Positions 3,921-31,000 of a DNA stretch of 38,699 bases are shown here, in pieces. Every line of letters starts with the position of its first letter. Within the stretch, counting starts at the first letter, position 1. Under the pieces are notes generated by a model that saw nothing but the letters and a program-made list of their open reading frames with translations, searched no databases and had not been told where the DNA came from. Both the position numbers and the translations under genes were made by a program. The stretch spans positions 1-38,699 of the forward strand of contig JAFQOR010000013.1 of NCBI GenBank assembly GCA_017403125.1, written 5' to 3'. The stretch is from Alistipes sp. (GTDB taxonomy: Bacteria > Bacteroidota > Bacteroidia > Bacteroidales > Rikenellaceae).

Positions 3921-4895
3921 ATGACAGTAAATCTTACCACATCGTTTGCAGGACTGGAACTCAAAAATCCGATTATTGCTTCCGCAAGTCCATTAACAGC
4001 GACACCCGAACTATGTCTCAATTTGGAGAAGGCGGGCGCTGCCGCAATTGTTGTCAAGAGCATATTCGAGAAGAGCATCGCACACAATGCCCACTCACTT
4101 TCGAGCAATCTATCGCATGGTGAGGAGAGTGACTATCTCGACGGCTATATCGCCGAACAAATGGTATCGGAGTGGCGCAACACGCTCATAGGCATTAAGA
4201 AGTTATGTAGCATACCCATCATAGCATCTATCGCTGCACAGTCGCCCTCGGCATGGACGCGCTACGCCAAAGTTGCAACCGAGGCGGGCGCCGACGCCAT
4301 AGAGATGAACCTGATGAACGTAGGTTTGTGTACACGTCACACGAAATATGGTGTTGTAGAACAGCAGTTCCTTGATATGGTAGATTGCGTGCGCTCGGCG
4401 ACATCGCTGCCCGTGGGTGTAAAGCTTGCAGCCAACATCACCAACCCCGCAGCGCTCGTCGATAGATTGGTGGCGCGCGGCATAAAGGGCGTTGTGCTGT
4501 TTAACCGTCCCTACCCCGTAGATATAGACATCGAGAAGGGCGAGTATTGCGTAAATAGCAACACCACATCAAGCACATTCCTTGCACGACCCTTGCGCTG
4601 GACAGGCATACTCTCTGCCGAGATACCATCGGTGGATTATGCATTGTCGGGAGGAGTTCAGTCGGGTGAGGATGTGATAAAGGCTATACTTGCCGGAGCA
4701 TCTGCCGTATGTATTTGCAGCACGCTCTACAAGAATGGAATCGAGCATATCGAGACCATGCTCGCCACGATACGTGATTGGCAGGAGCGCCATTTCGAGG
4801 AGACCATCGACCAATTCAAGGGCAGAATGAACGCCTCGAAGGAGGCTTTTGCCGACGAGTTGTTGCGTGCACAATATCTACACTACACCGTTTAG
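3921..4895 (+). CDS. Dihydroorotate dehydrogenase-like flavoprotein of unknown substrate
   Basis: 324 aa, a TIM-barrel protein of the dihydroorotate dehydrogenase family. It opens with a GLELKNPIIASASPLT strand, close to the start of PyrD enzymes, and near the C-terminus has the FMN-phosphate-binding pattern LSGGVQSGEDVIKAILAGA. The segment that in true class 1 PyrD carries the catalytic Cys or Ser (N-x-S/C-x-P-N) reads NLMNVG at residues 130-135, so the usual catalytic base is missing. A genuine PyrD is encoded at 35998-36915, so this paralogue is unlikely to make orotate. Its reaction is unknown. It stands 23 nt before the UDP-glucose dehydrogenase gene and heads the nucleotide-sugar operon. 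The start is the first ATG fitting the family N-terminus. Confidence 0.8.
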   Translation: MTVNLTTSFAGLELKNPIIASASPLTATPELCLNLEKAGAAAIVVKSIFEKSIAHNAHSLSSNLSHGEESDYLDGYIAEQMVSEWRNTLIGIKKLCSIPIIASIAAQSPSAWTRYAKVATEAGADAIEMNLMNVGLCTRHTKYGVVEQQFLDMVDCVRSATSLPVGVKLAANITNPAALVDRLVARGIKGVVLFNRPYPVDIDIEKGEYCVNSNTTSSTFLARPLRWTGILSAEIPSVDYALSGGVQSGEDVIKAILAGASAVCICSTLYKNGIEHIETMLATIRDWQERHFEETIDQFKGRMNASKEAFADELLRAQYLHYTV

Positions 4896-15160: not shown

Positions 15161-15319
15161 CTATCTCAACTCGTCGGGATGCAGACGCACGACCTCGCCA
15201 TCACGCACCACAACCAAATCACCATTATCCTTGCGCGTACGCTCGATAAGGCGTCGTTGTGCCAACAAAATTCCGGCATCGATACGCTCCTGTAACTCTC
15301 TAATTTCAAACTCACTCAT
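15161..15319 (-). CDS. Small 52-aa protein overlapping the zeta-like kinase gene
   Basis: The 52-codon ORF begins MSEFEIRELQERIDAG and ends at a TAG at 15161-15163. Its ATG (15317-15319) overlaps the last 8 nt of the kinase gene, an arrangement typical of translational coupling. The composition is highly charged. The N-terminal half looks helical (RELQERIDAGILLAQRRLIERTR) and the C-terminal half is a short beta hairpin (DLVVVRDGEVVRLHPDEL). Small charged proteins next to zeta-type kinases are often their antitoxins or partners, so an antitoxin-like role is my inference. I do not recognise a named family. Confidence 0.65.
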   Translation of the reverse strand: MSEFEIRELQERIDAGILLAQRRLIERTRKDNGDLVVVRDGEVVRLHPDELR

Positions 15320-15884
15320 AGCTCAATATCTTATTATACGCTAACGGATCAACAATCTCCTTTATTTCACTCTTCGAGCCATAGGCAATCTTTTTCACGC
15401 CCTCGGCTGTACTGTTATCGTATATGACCCAATAGTCACAAATGGGCATATAGAGCTTCGTAAGGTTACGCATGCTGCTCTCGTAGCGACGACATATGGT
15501 ATTTGTGGGGATGTTGTGTCCTCCAAGGCTCACACGCTTCGCCACACGCTGAATAGCCTGTTCGGGCGTTGGAAGCCAAAAATAGAGGAGTGATACAAAG
15601 TAGCCACGTTCATGAGCTCGGTCGATGAATTTCTGATATGTGCGCGTTGAAAGTGTCGTCTCGAATGCGAAGTCGGAACCATCTTCAAGCAGGTCGTTAA
15701 TACGACGCAACATGAGTCTGCCCGCCTCGATAGCTTGGCTATCGGGATTAAACGGAGATAAGCCACGAGCAATCTCGTCGGCATTGACAAACTCGTGGCA
15801 GTGCAACATCTCTGGCAACATGGTGTATGATGCCGTGGTCTTACCTGCGCCGTTGCAACCCGCTATGATGTAGAGTTTCTGCAT
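15312..15884 (-). CDS. Zeta-toxin-like P-loop kinase / AAA ATPase
   Basis: 190 aa. A Walker A motif GCNGAGKT occupies residues 9-16, followed by FVNADEIARGLSP and the FETTLS motif (Glu75-Thr-Thr) seen in zeta-toxin and COG4185-type kinases. An LYFWLPTPEQAIQRVAKRV segment carries the lid-region arginines. Zeta toxins phosphorylate UDP-N-acetyl-amino sugars; chromosomal relatives such as this may use other substrates. It has its own promoter and is followed by an overlapping 52-codon gene, so the pair looks like a toxin-antitoxin-type module, though in the toxin-first order. The function is unproven. Confidence 0.75.
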   Translation of the reverse strand: MQKLYIIAGCNGAGKTTASYTMLPEMLHCHEFVNADEIARGLSPFNPDSQAIEAGRLMLRRINDLLEDGSDFAFETTLSTRTYQKFIDRAHERGYFVSLLYFWLPTPEQAIQRVAKRVSLGGHNIPTNTICRRYESSMRNLTKLYMPICDYWVIYDNSTAEGVKKIAYGSKSEIKEIVDPLAYNKILSYE

Positions 15885-27900: not shown

Positions 27901-28617
27901 AAACGACTCGTCGATTGTAATCTCTTCAATCTCGGTAGTGAAAGTTGTATGGCGACAGTGGTCGCTCCAATAGGTATCCAAGATACACAACTCCGTCTCC
28001 ATAGGATCGCGACCCTCCTCACGGAAGTAGTTTACCACCTCGCGAAGGTCATCGGCATTCATTGCCAAACCCCTCTCTTTGCAGAAGGCCGCCAGCTCCT
28101 CCTTGCTCTCCATCTTACGGAAGTCGGCGAGAGCCAATACGGGCTTAACAACGTTACTCTCGTTCTCCGACAATTGATTTAGGTCCTTGCGACGCGACTC
28201 AACACTGTTGATGCAGTACTTCTCGATACGCTCCATAGCACGCTTCGAGAGATTACCCTCGAAGATATAGAGGCGCGACGACTTGATACGCACATCGGCA
28301 TTTGGCTCGATTAGATGTACACAATCCACCGCCGACGCAGCACGCTGATCGAACTGTCCGGGCAGATACTCCACCGCAAGCCAATTGCAACCCGCAAGAT
28401 CGCACTCATCGGTAACCTTGTCGGTTACAATCTCGCCAAAAACGCTATAACGACACCTCTCCAACAACTCATCCGAGAAGCCAAACAAATCATAGACATT
28501 GATGTAGCGCAGATGCTTAATCTTCAATCCGAGATTGGTATTAAGCTCATTTCGCAAGTTCTCCGCTTCGACCTGTAAACGGGGATATTTCTCAACAAAA
28601 ATACGACGATTCTTCAT
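24910..28617 (-). CDS. purL: Phosphoribosylformylglycinamidine synthase, single-chain type
   Basis: 1235 aa. It makes FGAM from FGAR, glutamine and ATP (step 4). This is the long one-polypeptide form, as in Proteobacteria and eukaryotes, rather than the split PurL/PurQ/PurS set. The N-terminal domain, the two AIR-synthetase-like halves (LDTYWSDHCRHTTF, FKNETHNHPTEIEPFGGA, LPSIGGKDSMSGTF) and the C-terminal class I glutaminase are present. The glutaminase has nucleophile Cys in LGICNGFQAL and His/Glu in MGHTERYER. In contrast to CarA in this window, its glutaminase site is intact. It is 30 nt after purE. Confidence 0.97.
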   Translation of the reverse strand: MKNRRIFVEKYPRLQVEAENLRNELNTNLGLKIKHLRYINVYDLFGFSDELLERCRYSVFGEIVTDKVTDECDLAGCNWLAVEYLPGQFDQRAASAVDCVHLIEPNADVRIKSSRLYIFEGNLSKRAMERIEKYCINSVESRRKDLNQLSENESNVVKPVLALADFRKMESKEELAAFCKERGLAMNADDLREVVNYFREEGRDPMETELCILDTYWSDHCRHTTFTTEIEEITIDESFMKAEFEESLDLMRGIRKELDREQKSLCLMELATIGARYLRKVGKLDDMEQSEENNACSIFVNVDVDGQMERWLLQFKNETHNHPTEIEPFGGASTCLGGAIRDPLSGRSYVYQAMRVTGAGDIYKRVDETMEGKLPQRIISTKAAAGYSSYGNQIGLATTHVREIYHPDYVAKRMEVGAVVGAVKAENVRRESPAPGDVVLLLGGRTGRDGVGGATGSSKEHTLTSLEECSSEVQKGNAPEERKLSRLFRRGDVTRLIKKSNDFGAGGVSVAIGELTDGLDIYLHRVPVKYNGLNSTELAISESQERMAVVVERKDMERFMELCHEENVEVTHVADVTDTRRMRMIHGNRMVVDLSRDFIDSAGAKHYTKVNIGSVEQRNPFEREVKGRSVKERMKNNLSDDNVVSQKGLIEMFDSTIGASTVLMPFGGRTQTTETQVSVQKLPVGNAFTNTASIMSFGYNPHIAKWSPYHGAAYAVVEACAKVVAAGARYDKMRFSYQEYFERMTDATSWGKPMAALLGALKMQVALGLPSIGGKDSMSGTFRDINVPPMLMAFGITTVDARVVISPEFKRPNNKLYVIRHTPEANYMPSVEQLKDNFDFVSDKIAEGVILSAYAVGFGGIGEAVAKMSFGNNIGAKLECEEQMLYDYSYGSILVESSRTLNHPSAEFIGYTTDKEYIEVARTKLSIAELLEANTRKFTEIYADKGEKGHVVRASRGAKRVVEYKGEKVDKVKVYIPVFPGTNCDYDTARAFERAGAEVEISVFKNLTGEDVLQSIAEMKEHIGHCHIMALSGGFSAGDEPDGSGKFIANVLNNGDVAEAIHALLDRGGLMLGICNGFQALVKSGLLPYGRLGMVSASSPTLFRNDINRHISQIVSTRVGTTASPWLSSFKVGDIHSIAVSHGEGKFVVSDQMADELFRNGQIAFQYVDMDGHPTTDSPANPNGSSFAIEGIIDPSGQILGKMGHTERYERDLMKNIHGEKVQDIFSNAVNYFRK

Positions 28618-28647
28618 ATTCGATTTCAGGTTTTCGTTACTCGCCGA

Positions 28648-29115
28648 TTACAACTCCGAAGCAAGCACCTTATCAGTTTGAGCCTTGCGGAAGGCTATCA
28701 AACGCTCTTCGAGTGCCTTATCCGTAAGCGCAAAAATAGAAGCGGCTATGAGCGCGGCGTTCTTGGCACCATTGATAGCGGTCGTAGATACAGGGATACC
28801 ACCGGGCATCTGCACAATCGATAGCAACGAATCCATACCGCCGAGCGCCGATGTCTTGATAGGCACACCGATAACCGGAACTGTGGTTAATGCCGCCGTA
28901 ACGCCTGCCACATGTGCTGCGCCACCCGCACCGGCGATGATAGCCCCTATGCCTCGCTCACGTGCCGTGGTAGCATACTCGAACATGAGATGCGGGGTGC
29001 GGTGTGCACTGATAACGCGCTTCTCGTACTCGATACCCAACTCTTCCAAAGTCTCGACAGCGGACTTCATAATATCCCAATCGCTGGTCGAACCCATAAT
29101 AACTGCAACTTTCAT
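28648..29115 (-). CDS. purE: N5-carboxyaminoimidazole ribonucleotide mutase
   Basis: 155 aa. It converts N5-CAIR to CAIR (step 6). MGSTSDWD (residues 7-14), SAHRTP (36-41) and the AGAGGAAHVAG loop (61-71, with His68) identify the class I enzyme, which normally needs PurK to make N5-CAIR. No purK lies in the operon or the window. purE is the first enzyme gene of the operon and is preceded by a 260-nt leader containing a short ORF and a terminator. Confidence 0.95.
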   Translation of the reverse strand: MKVAVIMGSTSDWDIMKSAVETLEELGIEYEKRVISAHRTPHLMFEYATTARERGIGAIIAGAGGAAHVAGVTAALTTVPVIGVPIKTSALGGMDSLLSIVQMPGGIPVSTTAINGAKNAALIAASIFALTDKALEERLIAFRKAQTDKVLASEL

Positions 29116-29156
29116 AGTATTGATATTTTGTAATTTAACTCTTATTTCTCTCTAAC

Positions 29157-29198
29157 AAAAAAAACAAACAACCGCCCACACTACACGTGTCAGCGGTC
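29157..29198 (-). terminator. Leader terminator of the purine operon (putative attenuator)
   Basis: Minus-strand hairpin with arms at 29187-29197 and 29171-29181: ten pairs (nine Watson-Crick, one G-U), one G-G mismatch and a 5-nt loop. It is followed by TGTTTG and eight T residues (29157-29164). The stem starts 1 nt after the stop codon of the leader ORF and ends upstream of purE, so it can block the whole operon. Its 5' arm can instead pair with 29282-29294 (see findings). Confidence 0.75.
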
Positions 29199-29375
29199 CT
29201 AATACTCCTCAATCAACCCACAAAATTGAACACACATACTCCCTATTCCAGAACATACGCCGTTCGACATAGCCGACGATCGACCTCTAACACGTCTGTG
29301 TTCATTAGCCAACGCCCATCCAACTGTCGCTGGTTGCTCTACACAAAGGTTCAATTTTGGGTTATGATTGTTCAT
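29199..29375 (-). CDS. Putative leader peptide of the purine operon (58 codons)
   Basis: ORF starting MNNHNPKLNLCVEQP and ending GLIEEY-stop, with the stop at 29199-29201 immediately before the terminator stem. No homology to a known protein is apparent. The last 55 or so nucleotides are G/U-rich and C-poor (I count 2 C in 57 nt, 29198-29254). The ATG lies only 4 nt after the predicted -7 element, so translation would be leaderless or nearly so; this is the weak point of the call. It may be a translated leader that controls attenuation, or an untranslated structured leader in which this frame is open by chance. Confidence 0.45.
   Translation of the reverse strand: MNNHNPKLNLCVEQPATVGWALANEHRRVRGRSSAMSNGVCSGIGSMCVQFCGLIEEY
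29282..29308 (-). promoter_or_regulatory. Antiterminator and anti-antiterminator segments in the purine leader
   Basis: On the minus strand, 29282-29294 is complementary to the 5' arm of the leader terminator (29186-29198) at 11 of 13 positions plus one G-U pair. The adjacent 29298-29302 forms a 5-bp hairpin with 29289-29293 (AACAC/GTGTT, loop AGAC), which would occupy the antiterminator. The set has the 1:2, 2:3, 3:4 logic of classic attenuators. Confidence 0.55.
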
Positions 29376-29379
29376 ACGA

Positions 29380-29387
29380 CAAAGGTA
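29380..29387 (-). promoter_or_regulatory. -7 element of the purine operon promoter
   Basis: CAAAGGTA on the plus strand reads TACCTTTG on the minus strand, identical to the -7 element of the divergent pyrimidine promoter. No TTG is visible at the expected -33 position; the region there is T-rich. Transcription should begin near 29375. Confidence 0.65.
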
Positions 29388-29499
29388 CAACTAATTTTCC
29401 TTAATAAAAAACGCGCGCGACCCTTTTTTCAACTTTTTTTTAACATTTAGCAAAACTCCGAAGATTCTGAAAAAACACACAAAAAATATTAGCGAAAAG

Positions 29500-29530
29500 T
29501 TGTACGGTTGATAAAAAATGCTTACCTTTG
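29500..29530 (+). promoter_or_regulatory. Promoter of the pyrimidine operon
   Basis: A -33 TTG at 29500-29502 is separated by 20 nt from a -7 TACCTTTG at 29523-29530. Transcription should begin near 29535, about 10 nt before the leader ORF. The purine promoter lies 110-150 bp away on the other strand. Confidence 0.8.
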
Positions 29531-29545
29531 CCAAAACGTATTGAA

Positions 29546-29653
29546 ATGATGAGACAATCAGTTGAAAAGAATCTTTTTTCGTTGAATCAGATTACGGCGC
29601 AGGCGCAGGCCTATCGCCGACGTTCGGCTCTTTGTCTTCACTGTTTGATTTAA
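29546..29653 (+). CDS. Putative pyr leader peptide (35 codons)
   Basis: ORF starting MMRQSVEKNLFSLNQ and ending LCLHCLI, with the stop TAA at 29651-29653. It starts a few nucleotides after the predicted transcription start and stops 5 nt before the terminator stem, so a ribosome at the stop codon would cover the 5' arm of the hairpin. The leader contains T6 (29574-29579), a CGGCG/CGCCG hairpin (29595-29619) and then a T-rich segment (18 T in 31 nt, 29628-29658). This layout is that of UTP-sensing leaders such as enteric pyrBI. Confidence 0.65.
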   Translation: MMRQSVEKNLFSLNQITAQAQAYRRRSALCLHCLI

Positions 29654-29658
29654 TATTT

Positions 29659-29684
29659 GGCGGCTTTTGGCCGCCTATTTTTTT
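29659..29684 (+). terminator. Leader terminator of the pyrimidine operon (putative attenuator)
   Basis: A perfect 6-bp GC stem, GGCGGC (29659-29664) with GCCGCC (29670-29675), 5-nt loop, followed by TA and seven T residues. It ends 2 nt before the pyrC ATG at 29687, so it also covers the pyrC translation-initiation region. Confidence 0.85.
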
Positions 29685-29686
29685 AT

Positions 29687-30967
29687 ATGAACAACAGCAG
29701 ATTAGTTATTAAAGGAGGAGAATTGCTCAACGCTAAAAGCATGGGCAAAACCGATATTGTCATCGCAAACGGACATATCACAGAGATTGGAACAGACATA
29801 GCAACTACCCCAAACGACACCATCGTAGATGCCTCGGGGAAGATCGTAGCACCCGCATTTGTGGATGTCCACGTTCACCTTCGCGAACCAGGCTTTGGCT
29901 ACAAGGAGCGCATCGCCACGGGCACGATGGCCGGTGCGCGTGGCGGCTATACCACGCTATGCCCCATGCCCAATCTCAACCCCGTGCCCGACAGCGTCGA
30001 GACGCTTGCCGTAGAGCAGGACATTATCAACCGTGATGCCAAAATCGAGGTGCTACCCTATGCAGCAATCACCAAAGAGCGCAAAGGTTTGGAGCTTGTC
30101 GATATCGCCTCACTCAAAGATAAAGTCTGCGCCTTCTCGGATGATGGTAGCGGTGTTCAGTCTGACGAGATGATGGAACGCGCAATGACCGAGGCAGCCC
30201 GAAACAACGTGATTATCGCAGCACACTGCGAGGTCGAAGAGCTCCTCAAAGGTGGCTACATCCACGATGGCGAATATGCAAAGATGCACGGGCACAAGGG
30301 CATCTGCTCGGAGAGCGAGTGGGAGCAGGTACGTCGCGACATCGAAATTGCCGAGCGCGTAGGCTGCCACTATCACGTATGCCACATATCGACAAAGGAG
30401 ACCGTAGAGCTAATCCGCAAGGCAAAGGCTCGTGGCGTGAAGGTTACGTGCGAGACGGGGCCTCACTATCTGATATTTACCGACATGGATTTGGAGGAGG
30501 ACGCTCGCTGGAAGATGAATCCGCCGCTACGTTCGGCAGAGGACAGAGCAGCGCTTATCGAGGGAATCAAGGATGGCACAATCGACATGATTGCCACCGA
30601 CCATGCCCCCCACTCCTTGGAGGAGAAGTCGCGCGGCTTGAAGGATAGCGCAATGGGCATTGTCGGCTTGGAGACAGCATTCGCAGCACTCAACACACAC
30701 CTCGTTAGAAGGGGTGTTATAAGCCTCGAACGCCTTATCGAAATCATGAGTATCAATCCCCGAAAAGTATTTGGCATCAGTGGCGGAGCCAACGTAGGAG
30801 ATCGTGCCGACATTGTGATTCTCGACACAGATAGAGAGTGGACGGTAGATAGCCGCAACTTCTTCTCGCAGGGCAAGGTGACAATGTTCGATGGTCGCGA
30901 TATGGTTGGCGACGTAGTAATGACCATACATCGAGGCAACATAGTTTACGAAAATAACAGCAAATAA
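29687..30967 (+). CDS. pyrC: Dihydroorotase
   Basis: 426 aa amidohydrolase closing carbamoyl-aspartate to dihydroorotate. The metal-binding DVHVHLREPG has His62 and His64. KIEVLPYAAIT, IIAAHCEVEE, CHISTKETVELI and the catalytic ATDHAPHSLEEK (Asp) are present; this is the long type I class with metal ligands intact. I use the ATG at 29687; an upstream in-frame TTG at 29657 would place the first codons inside the terminator hairpin. It is the first gene of the eight-gene pyrimidine operon. Confidence 0.95.
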   Translation: MNNSRLVIKGGELLNAKSMGKTDIVIANGHITEIGTDIATTPNDTIVDASGKIVAPAFVDVHVHLREPGFGYKERIATGTMAGARGGYTTLCPMPNLNPVPDSVETLAVEQDIINRDAKIEVLPYAAITKERKGLELVDIASLKDKVCAFSDDGSGVQSDEMMERAMTEAARNNVIIAAHCEVEELLKGGYIHDGEYAKMHGHKGICSESEWEQVRRDIEIAERVGCHYHVCHISTKETVELIRKAKARGVKVTCETGPHYLIFTDMDLEEDARWKMNPPLRSAEDRAALIEGIKDGTIDMIATDHAPHSLEEKSRGLKDSAMGIVGLETAFAALNTHLVRRGVISLERLIEIMSINPRKVFGISGGANVGDRADIVILDTDREWTVDSRNFFSQGKVTMFDGRDMVGDVVMTIHRGNIVYENNSK

Positions 30968-31000
30968 TATAAACTATAAACAATATAAAATAACAAGTAA

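Follow-up and report, generated by a model that had tools for sequence, protein, structure and literature searches.

The 571-bp intergenic region between the divergent genes purE and pyrC (positions 29116-29686) on contig JAFQOR010000013.1 carries a pair of attenuator-like leaders, one in front of each gene. The whole 38,699-nt stretch of this contig that was analysed is called the window below. The host, a member of the Bacteroidales, has a 1.8 Mb genome, and each of the two genes heads a full pathway operon: purE, on the minus strand, that of purines and pyrC, on the plus strand, that of pyrimidines. The paired leaders, noticed in an earlier sequence-only reading of this DNA, are confirmed as a real observation. 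We propose that both leaders attenuate transcription through coupling to translation, with the ribosome itself as the switch in place of a competing RNA hairpin, an interpretation that the sequences make fairly probable. We have good confidence that the pyrimidine (pyr) leader would work like that of pyrBI in Escherichia coli, and the purine (pur) leader probably shares the ribosome coupling.

The elements of the pyr leader, which is built around a short leader open reading frame (ORF), are as follows.

29523-29530, plus strand: pyr promoter -7 box TACCTTTG, from a box scan of the sequence, with a predicted start near 29535
29546 (ATG) to 29653 (TAA stop included), plus strand: pyr leader ORF of 35 amino acids, MMRQSVEKNLFSLNQITAQAQAYRRRSALCLHCLI
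29634-29658, plus strand: U-rich tract and candidate pause region sensitive to uridine triphosphate (UTP), with a T fraction of 0.56 over 25 nt
29659-29685, plus strand: pyr intrinsic terminator, with a GC-rich stem at 29659-29675 and a T-run at 29676-29685
29539-29567, plus strand: predicted long-range stem (support moderate and mixed), 5' arm, which spans the leader start codon
29622-29650, plus strand: 3' arm of that predicted stem, which shares positions with the U-rich tract (support likewise moderate and mixed)
29687-30967, plus strand: pyrC, gene 1 of the pyrimidine operon

The box is separated from the leader ATG by 15 nt and the leader stop from the terminator stem by 5 nt. The short ORF with its stop 5 nt before an intrinsic terminator, lying between promoter and pyrC, is thus present as the sequence-only reading had described it. 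The pur leader is laid out in the same manner on the other strand.

29380-29387, minus strand: pur promoter -7 box TACCTTTG, from the box scan, 4 nt before the leader ATG
29375 (ATG) to 29199 (TAG stop included), minus strand: pur leader ORF of 58 amino acids, MNNHNPKLNLCVEQ...FCGLIEEY
29157-29198, minus strand: pur intrinsic terminator, with a stem at 29198-29170 and a T-run to about 29157
29349-29361, minus strand: 5' arm of a long-range stem predicted by folding, CCCAAAATTGAAC
29219-29231, minus strand: 3' arm of that stem, also predicted by folding, GTTCAATTTTGTG
28648-29115, minus strand: purE, gene 1 of the purine operon

The pur stem begins directly after the leader stop (a longer drawing of the stem overlaps the stop by 2 nt), and purE begins about 55 nt downstream of it, with its ATG at 29115. 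The short ORF ending at an intrinsic terminator between promoter and purE was likewise found, with a stop-to-stem distance of 0-1 nt. The earlier emphasis on an identical -7 box holds insofar as the box is present on both sides; its identity says little, since TAnnTTTG is the general promoter consensus of Bacteroidota (PMC7366714, PMC9723704).

Several controls address whether this layout could arise by chance. A plain terminator scan of positions 28000-31000 was not above chance (four found, against 3.4 +/- 2.1 in shuffled sequences); it picked up the pyr terminator and missed the pur terminator. Both window leaders fold better than shuffles, with z-scores of -2.96 and -3.21. In a census of about 387 kb (the window and 20 further stretches, about 21% of the genome) containing 92 terminator-like hairpins, the combination of a box and an ORF ending at a terminator occurred four times: at the pyr and pur loci and at two other places where the ORF that follows is small (26 and 44 amino acids). 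Within this part of the genome, only the pyr and pur loci combine box, ORF ending at a terminator and gene. The reversed-sequence control gave no hits, yet it contained only 34 hairpins. When the ORF was taken simply from the first ATG past the box, 29 of 38 pyr leaders had its stop within -14 to +15 nt of the stem, where shuffles predict 5.95, and so did 19 of 22 pur leaders, where they predict 0.99. These sets were preselected for box, ORF and terminator and the genomes are mutually related; the layout is far commoner than chance, with no exact probability implied.

The genomes compared belong to the host genus, inferred to be Alistipes-like (Rikenellaceae), and to one sister genus. The latter may be Tidjanibacter, given that the leader peptide of locus L261 is the same as that of L083, a record so named; the two, identical in this peptide, perhaps represent one species. 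The pyr leader is present in 42 of the 43 assessable genomes of the two genera, made up of 33 of 34 host-genus genomes and nine of nine more (four of the host genus, five of the sister genus). Two of the 33 (L043 and L050) failed the automatic rule and were accepted on reading, and three genomes could not be assessed because of a contig end (G007), a missing pyrC (G036) or a divergent pyrC (G017). The sole assessable genome whose pyrC lacks box, leader and terminator is G002 (L048), where near-repeats were seen upstream by eye. Eighteen named records, drawn from 80 among the matches listed, were also examined: 11 have the pyr leader, including that of the cultured Alistipes muris (L133), three have doubtful short ORFs, and L065, L086, L093 and L134 have none.

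Statistics on the pyr leader are based on a set of 42, namely 46 automatic pyrC rows without L043 (wrong start picked by the script) and without L076, L079 and L113 (ORFs of 8-17 amino acids in more distant genomes). The corresponding pur set has 23 members, being 25 purE rows without L172 and L179, whose weak hairpins lie more than 200 nt from purE; leaders found later (nine, four and five) are outside both sets. The stop-to-stem distance is -8 to +16 in 39 of the 42 pyr leaders and +31 to +40 in L061, L067 and L105; in L050 the stop is at +36 relative to the stem start. In these four leaders, as in pyrBI, the ORF extends through the terminator. The identity of the stop codon varies (TGA, TAA or TAG) while its position holds, and what is conserved is layout rather than sequence.

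For the pur leader, automatic rules recovered 31 of 41 host-genus genomes: 27 of 37 (23 by the first automatic pass and four with a longer 5' region) and four of four more. Across the set of 23, the stop lies at -14 to +7 relative to the stem; judged by eye, the leader peptides differ greatly between clades while the stop remains at the stem. All five sister-genus purE loci have a hairpin and an ORF ending -7 to +2 from it, which is weaker evidence obtained under a looser rule (any ATG or GTG within 230 nt, no box required). In four of them (L232, L233, L235 and L236) the -7 box ends, by eye, in A rather than G (TAnnTTTA for TAnnTTTG). The check that the sequence-only reading had asked of related genomes, covering terminators, leader ORFs and stop-to-stem spacing, thus found all three conserved.

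A possible nucleotide signal was sought in the 25 nt before each stem. On the pyr side this tract is richer in T than the rest of its own leader in 42 of 42 cases (mean difference +0.23). Its T fraction is 0.483, as against 0.269 upstream of 99 gene-end terminators from the window's genome (p 2e-16) and 0.297 in the 23 pur leaders (p 1.4e-8), and the excess is present in each of five clades. Such a U-rich tract is what would be expected to mark a UTP-sensitive pause, as in pyrBI. The pur tract is richer in G than gene ends (p 0.003) but not in A (p 0.70). Because the purine mark is weak, coupling is claimed for both leaders and a signal only for pyrimidines.

On this basis, the following mechanism is proposed. 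RNA polymerase would start at the TAnnTTTG promoter, and a ribosome would load on the short leader ORF. Should the ribosome lag well behind, the terminator where the ORF ends would fold and transcription would end before pyrC or purE. Were it close, it would sit at the stop, a few nucleotides before the stem or inside it, cover the 5' arm and allow polymerase to read on. In the pyr leader, scarce UTP would slow polymerase at the U-rich tract, giving close coupling and expression of the operon, as in E. coli pyrBI; the pur leader has the same geometry and probably the same coupling. The promoter activity, translation, termination and sensing of UTP or purines invoked here are inferred from the DNA. 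An experiment in E. coli fits the geometry: when a stop codon was relocated so that 5 bp separated it from a terminator, termination fell from about 90% to below 10%, and uncoupling translation restored it (PMC4824070). The 5-nt spacing in the window's pyr leader equals that test spacing. We favour direct blocking by the ribosome because of the stop geometry, the lack of antiterminator pairing and the drift of the peptides with little codon periodicity. The claim of the sequence-only reading that nucleotide supply sets the spacing between ribosome and polymerase is accordingly kept in part: stop-to-stem spacing is conserved, and pyrBI-like coupling is favoured on the pyr side by the U tract (42/42), the missing antiterminator and the lack of PyrR above cut-off (0/41 genomes), with the signal restricted to pyrimidines as stated above.

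Some observations weigh against this proposal. Codon positions vary almost equally in the leader ORFs, with little periodicity; what speaks for translation is therefore where the stop is placed, together with a motif at codon 7 described below. For pyrC, the evidence outside the two genera is thin: in the rest of the family, 19 loci comprised 18 that lacked the search motif and one that lacked a leader; among 14 of other families, nine lacked the motif and five a leader. The pur leader was absent from all 17 assessable purE loci of other family genera (19 loci, two of them without the motif) and from 13 of 13 in other families, a weak hit at L179 being set aside. Inside the host genus, 10 of 41 genomes have no pur leader that passes the automatic rules. 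Six of these (L018-L021, L172 and L173) have no pur leader at all; in L010, L025, L027 and L028 a hairpin is seen by eye, but stop, tail or promoter fails. The U tract is weaker in a GC-rich pyr clade (T 0.37, against 0.21 in its own leaders), the gene-end control tracts come from the window's genome (G000) only, and related genomes are not independent. The pur tract is only slightly enriched in A+G (0.593, against 0.533 at gene ends; p 0.011), and its G content is no higher than that of the rest of the leader (0.267 against about 0.264, 13 leaders).

A short ORF before a terminator is also the arrangement expected of amino-acid attenuation of the trp or his type, in which a ribosome would stall at control codons and an antiterminator would form. 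In its favour, AUA stands at codon 7 in many pyr leaders and the window's pyr leader contains Arg codons. Pairing of any leader region with the 5' arm of the terminator, though, was no better than in shuffles (mean z +0.23 for pyr and -0.13 for pur), with z below -1.64 in only 3 of 42 pyr and 3 of 23 pur leaders, and a trp-type antiterminator was therefore rejected. Moreover, no recurring run of a single codon was seen by eye, the peptides differ freely, and it is the stop codon rather than a codon block that sits at the terminator. We regard amino-acid attenuation as very improbable.

The codon-7 signal itself was found in a set of 44 pyr leaders (41 automatic rows and L043, L050 and L060, with a double ATG counted from the second). 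Of the 44, 27 have Ile as residue 7, and 23 of these 27 encode it by AUA, as compared with 175 of 877 Ile codons in pyrC. It is part of a motif, nAC AUA nCn CCG, at pyr codons 6-9 that is fixed to the start codon, with individual positions conserved at 52-83% in a set of 52 pyr leaders (the pur set had 35 leaders; L083 and L236 were left out). In 21 of 42 pyr leaders CATANC occurs among codons 1-15, against 2.1 expected. The motif is also present in one sister-genus purE leader (L241) and is absent from the window's own pyr leader. As a guess, AUA might act as a rare codon that brakes the ribosome early and gives polymerase a head start. Since codon positions vary almost equally, peptide arrest or coding selection on the leader peptide was judged unlikely, except at this motif.

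The leader RNA might instead be bound by a regulator or a small molecule (PyrR, a purine or phosphoribosyl pyrophosphate (PRPP) riboswitch, or a new riboswitch), with the ORF incidental. The better-than-shuffled folding of both window leaders and some covariation in the pyr long-range stem would suit this explanation. PyrR exceeded the cut-off in none of 41 genomes (25 of the host genus), against 6 of 14 controls, with weak sub-threshold matches in 33 of the 41. Rfam scans (at the gathering score and at E up to 1), which covered the window only, gave no family at gathering score and two matches far below it (E 0.22 and 0.59). A PyrR attenuator was rejected, with the protein over cut-off in 0/41 genomes and its RNA element not found in the window. 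Purine, PRPP and other known riboswitches were likewise rejected for the window leaders for want of an Rfam match. In addition, the leader RNA varies strongly even inside clades (58-92% mean column identity), whereas the stop stays in place. Binding of the leader RNA is thus an improbable explanation.

In many single-sequence folds, the long-range stem pairs the start of the pyr leader with RNA inside the U tract or immediately upstream of it. Six leaders that form one clade show eight pairs with changes on both sides (shuffled mean 2.6, 0/500 as high), two of which lie in the terminator, in a structure predicted from the same alignment; another clade has no conserved stem except the terminator. 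Comparison of own with swapped arms within clades gave p 0.001 overall, with only two of five clades individually below 0.05, and a permutation of arms across clades (0/20000) was confounded by GC content and is not relied on. Against shuffles, the mean z was only -0.85 for pyr and -0.70 for pur, and a second score, in which higher is better, was +0.64 and +1.03, respectively. For the pur stem of the window, z was 2.3 in one test and only -0.8 in another. The stem may be a pause hairpin and is not part of our main claim.

The terminators could also be unregulated, setting a fixed low read-through or yielding a short stable RNA. Termination beside a stop codon fits a constant level of expression. 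For such a level, however, it would be unnecessary that almost all species keep an ORF ending at the stem, or that a U-rich tract be confined to the pyr side. We hold this explanation to be as improbable as binding of the leader RNA.

The start of the pur leader deserves separate consideration. Twelve of 22 pur leaders (the window, L002-L004, L006-L009, L013-L015 and L017) have their ATG exactly 4 nt past the box, and the spacer reads NNGY in 11 of these 12, L017 being the exception. In Flavobacterium psychrophilum the -7 box lies at -12 to -5 (PMC9723704); therefore, the A of the pur leader ATG would be +1, and for the window's species and 11 relatives a leaderless leader mRNA is predicted. 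The NNGY spacer would permit a switch of start site between G(-2) and A(+1). On the pur side, start-site choice (A or G, according to adenosine or guanosine triphosphate) could thus toggle leaderless translation and read-through. Besides the exact spacing and the NNGY spacer, the rarity of leaderless mRNAs in the phylum speaks for such a role: 5' untranslated regions (UTRs) shorter than 10 nt make up about 3.7% in Bacteroides thetaiotaomicron (PMC7366714) and leaderless mRNAs 5.5% in F. psychrophilum (PMC9723704). Other host-genus species with 22-64 nt before the pur leader ATG, however, keep the attenuator. We consider the start-site toggle unlikely as the explanation. More speculatively, the ribosome-coupled pur leader may be a purine counterpart of pyrBI, in which a leaderless ORF loads the ribosome and purine supply signals through start-site choice or pausing in a purine-rich tract, having evolved beside a pyr version in which a conserved AUA brakes the ribosome early; we offer this tentatively.

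The two leaders had also been read as one regulatory island controlling both pathways, a view that the comparison does not sustain. The divergent operons lie within about 1.1 kb of each other in only 4 of 45 genomes of the two genera that have both genes (G000, G016, G021 and G191), G010 being a possible fifth case interrupted by a contig end, and each attenuator is kept in genomes where the purine and pyrimidine operons stand apart. In the window, the purine operon runs purE-purL-purC-purF-purM-purN-purH-purD-folD-purB and the pyrimidine operon pyrC-carA-carB-pyrK-pyrD-pyrF-pyrE-pyrB (eight genes); pyrB begins at about 38395 and extends past the window end, and purL, purC, purF, carA and carB were assigned by eye. 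PyrC of both genera is mostly about 30% identical to PyrC of other sampled Bacteroidales families, and, among the matches listed, many records labelled Clostridia or Oscillospiraceae carry a protein of about 50-62% identity. Horizontal transfer of pyrC is possible. A second dihydroorotate-dehydrogenase-like gene lies away from the pyr operon at 3921-4895 (PF01180, E 1.4e-12), and a Zeta-toxin-type domain is encoded at 15312-15884 on the minus strand (PF06414, E 1.5e-11).

Among known systems, E. coli pyrBI, with its leader gene pyrL, resembles the pyr leader in having a leader ORF that reaches an intrinsic terminator before a pyrimidine gene and a U-rich tract before that terminator. The two are likened by layout, convergence being assumed. 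They differ in phylum and promoter type, in the gene controlled (here pyrC, first of an eight-gene operon) and in the stop, which here often lies just before or inside the stem instead of beyond it (exceptions, L050, L061, L067 and L105). The E. coli rph-pyrE attenuator is alike in that a translated frame ends shortly before a terminator preceding a pyr gene; there the frame is a real enzyme gene, whereas here it is a dedicated short leader ORF. Attenuators of the trp and his type share the short leader ORF and premature terminator; unlike these, the present leaders have no antiterminator or control-codon run, and their targets are nucleotide operons. PyrR-dependent pyr attenuators also place a premature terminator before pyr genes, whereas here no PyrR was over the cut-off in 41 genomes and no PyrR RNA element was found in the window. 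In pyrBI the terminator is located inside the leader gene, and it does not form when ribosome and polymerase are tightly coupled (PMC5021804, PMC4824070). In the same phylum, leader-peptide attenuation has been suspected before amino-acid operons of F. psychrophilum (PMC9723704), and small ORFs in long 5' UTRs of B. thetaiotaomicron are "reminiscent of leader peptides" (PMC7366714); nucleotide operons are not named in the relevant passages of either paper. The word "bacteroid" does not occur in the main text of a 2010 survey of premature terminators (PMC2965389). In the open-licence literature we found little on the control of nucleotide synthesis in Bacteroidota and, in its listings, no leader-peptide attenuator for purines.

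Beyond the family, 30 pyrB loci of other Bacteroidales families, from 119 genomes searched, were surveyed. The automatic rule flagged five (L202, L209, L214, L216 and L222); on reading, L214, L216 and L222 are plausible leaders, L224 was added by eye, and the hairpins of L202 and L209 are weak, far or loose. Read by eye, the L224 leader, MNKYNITTQGQQSSIILQ..., ends in a U-rich stretch, and a terminator precedes pyrB; around residue 6 the leader has NIT, reminiscent of the NIS motif found in pyr leaders. A GGCGRC terminator stem before pyrB in other Bacteroidales families at first resembled the same attenuator and was rejected, many of the 16 regions being, by eye, ends of the preceding gene. 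The ribosome-coupled principle may be older than these genera or may have arisen repeatedly.

The layout, its conservation, the U-rich tract and the lack of an antiterminator are present in the DNA of these genera, whose promoters, like those of Bacteroidota generally, differ from those of E. coli. If our proposal is true, an attenuator that reads spacing without relying on sequence would imply close coupling of transcription and translation in Bacteroidota. The pyrBI principle would be extended to a second phylum, and to purines too if the purine half holds. It would also explain how such leaders have escaped family searches, as mainly the place of the stop, the terminator and the base composition are kept. 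These leaders would serve as natural probes for testing coupling directly in Bacteroidota.

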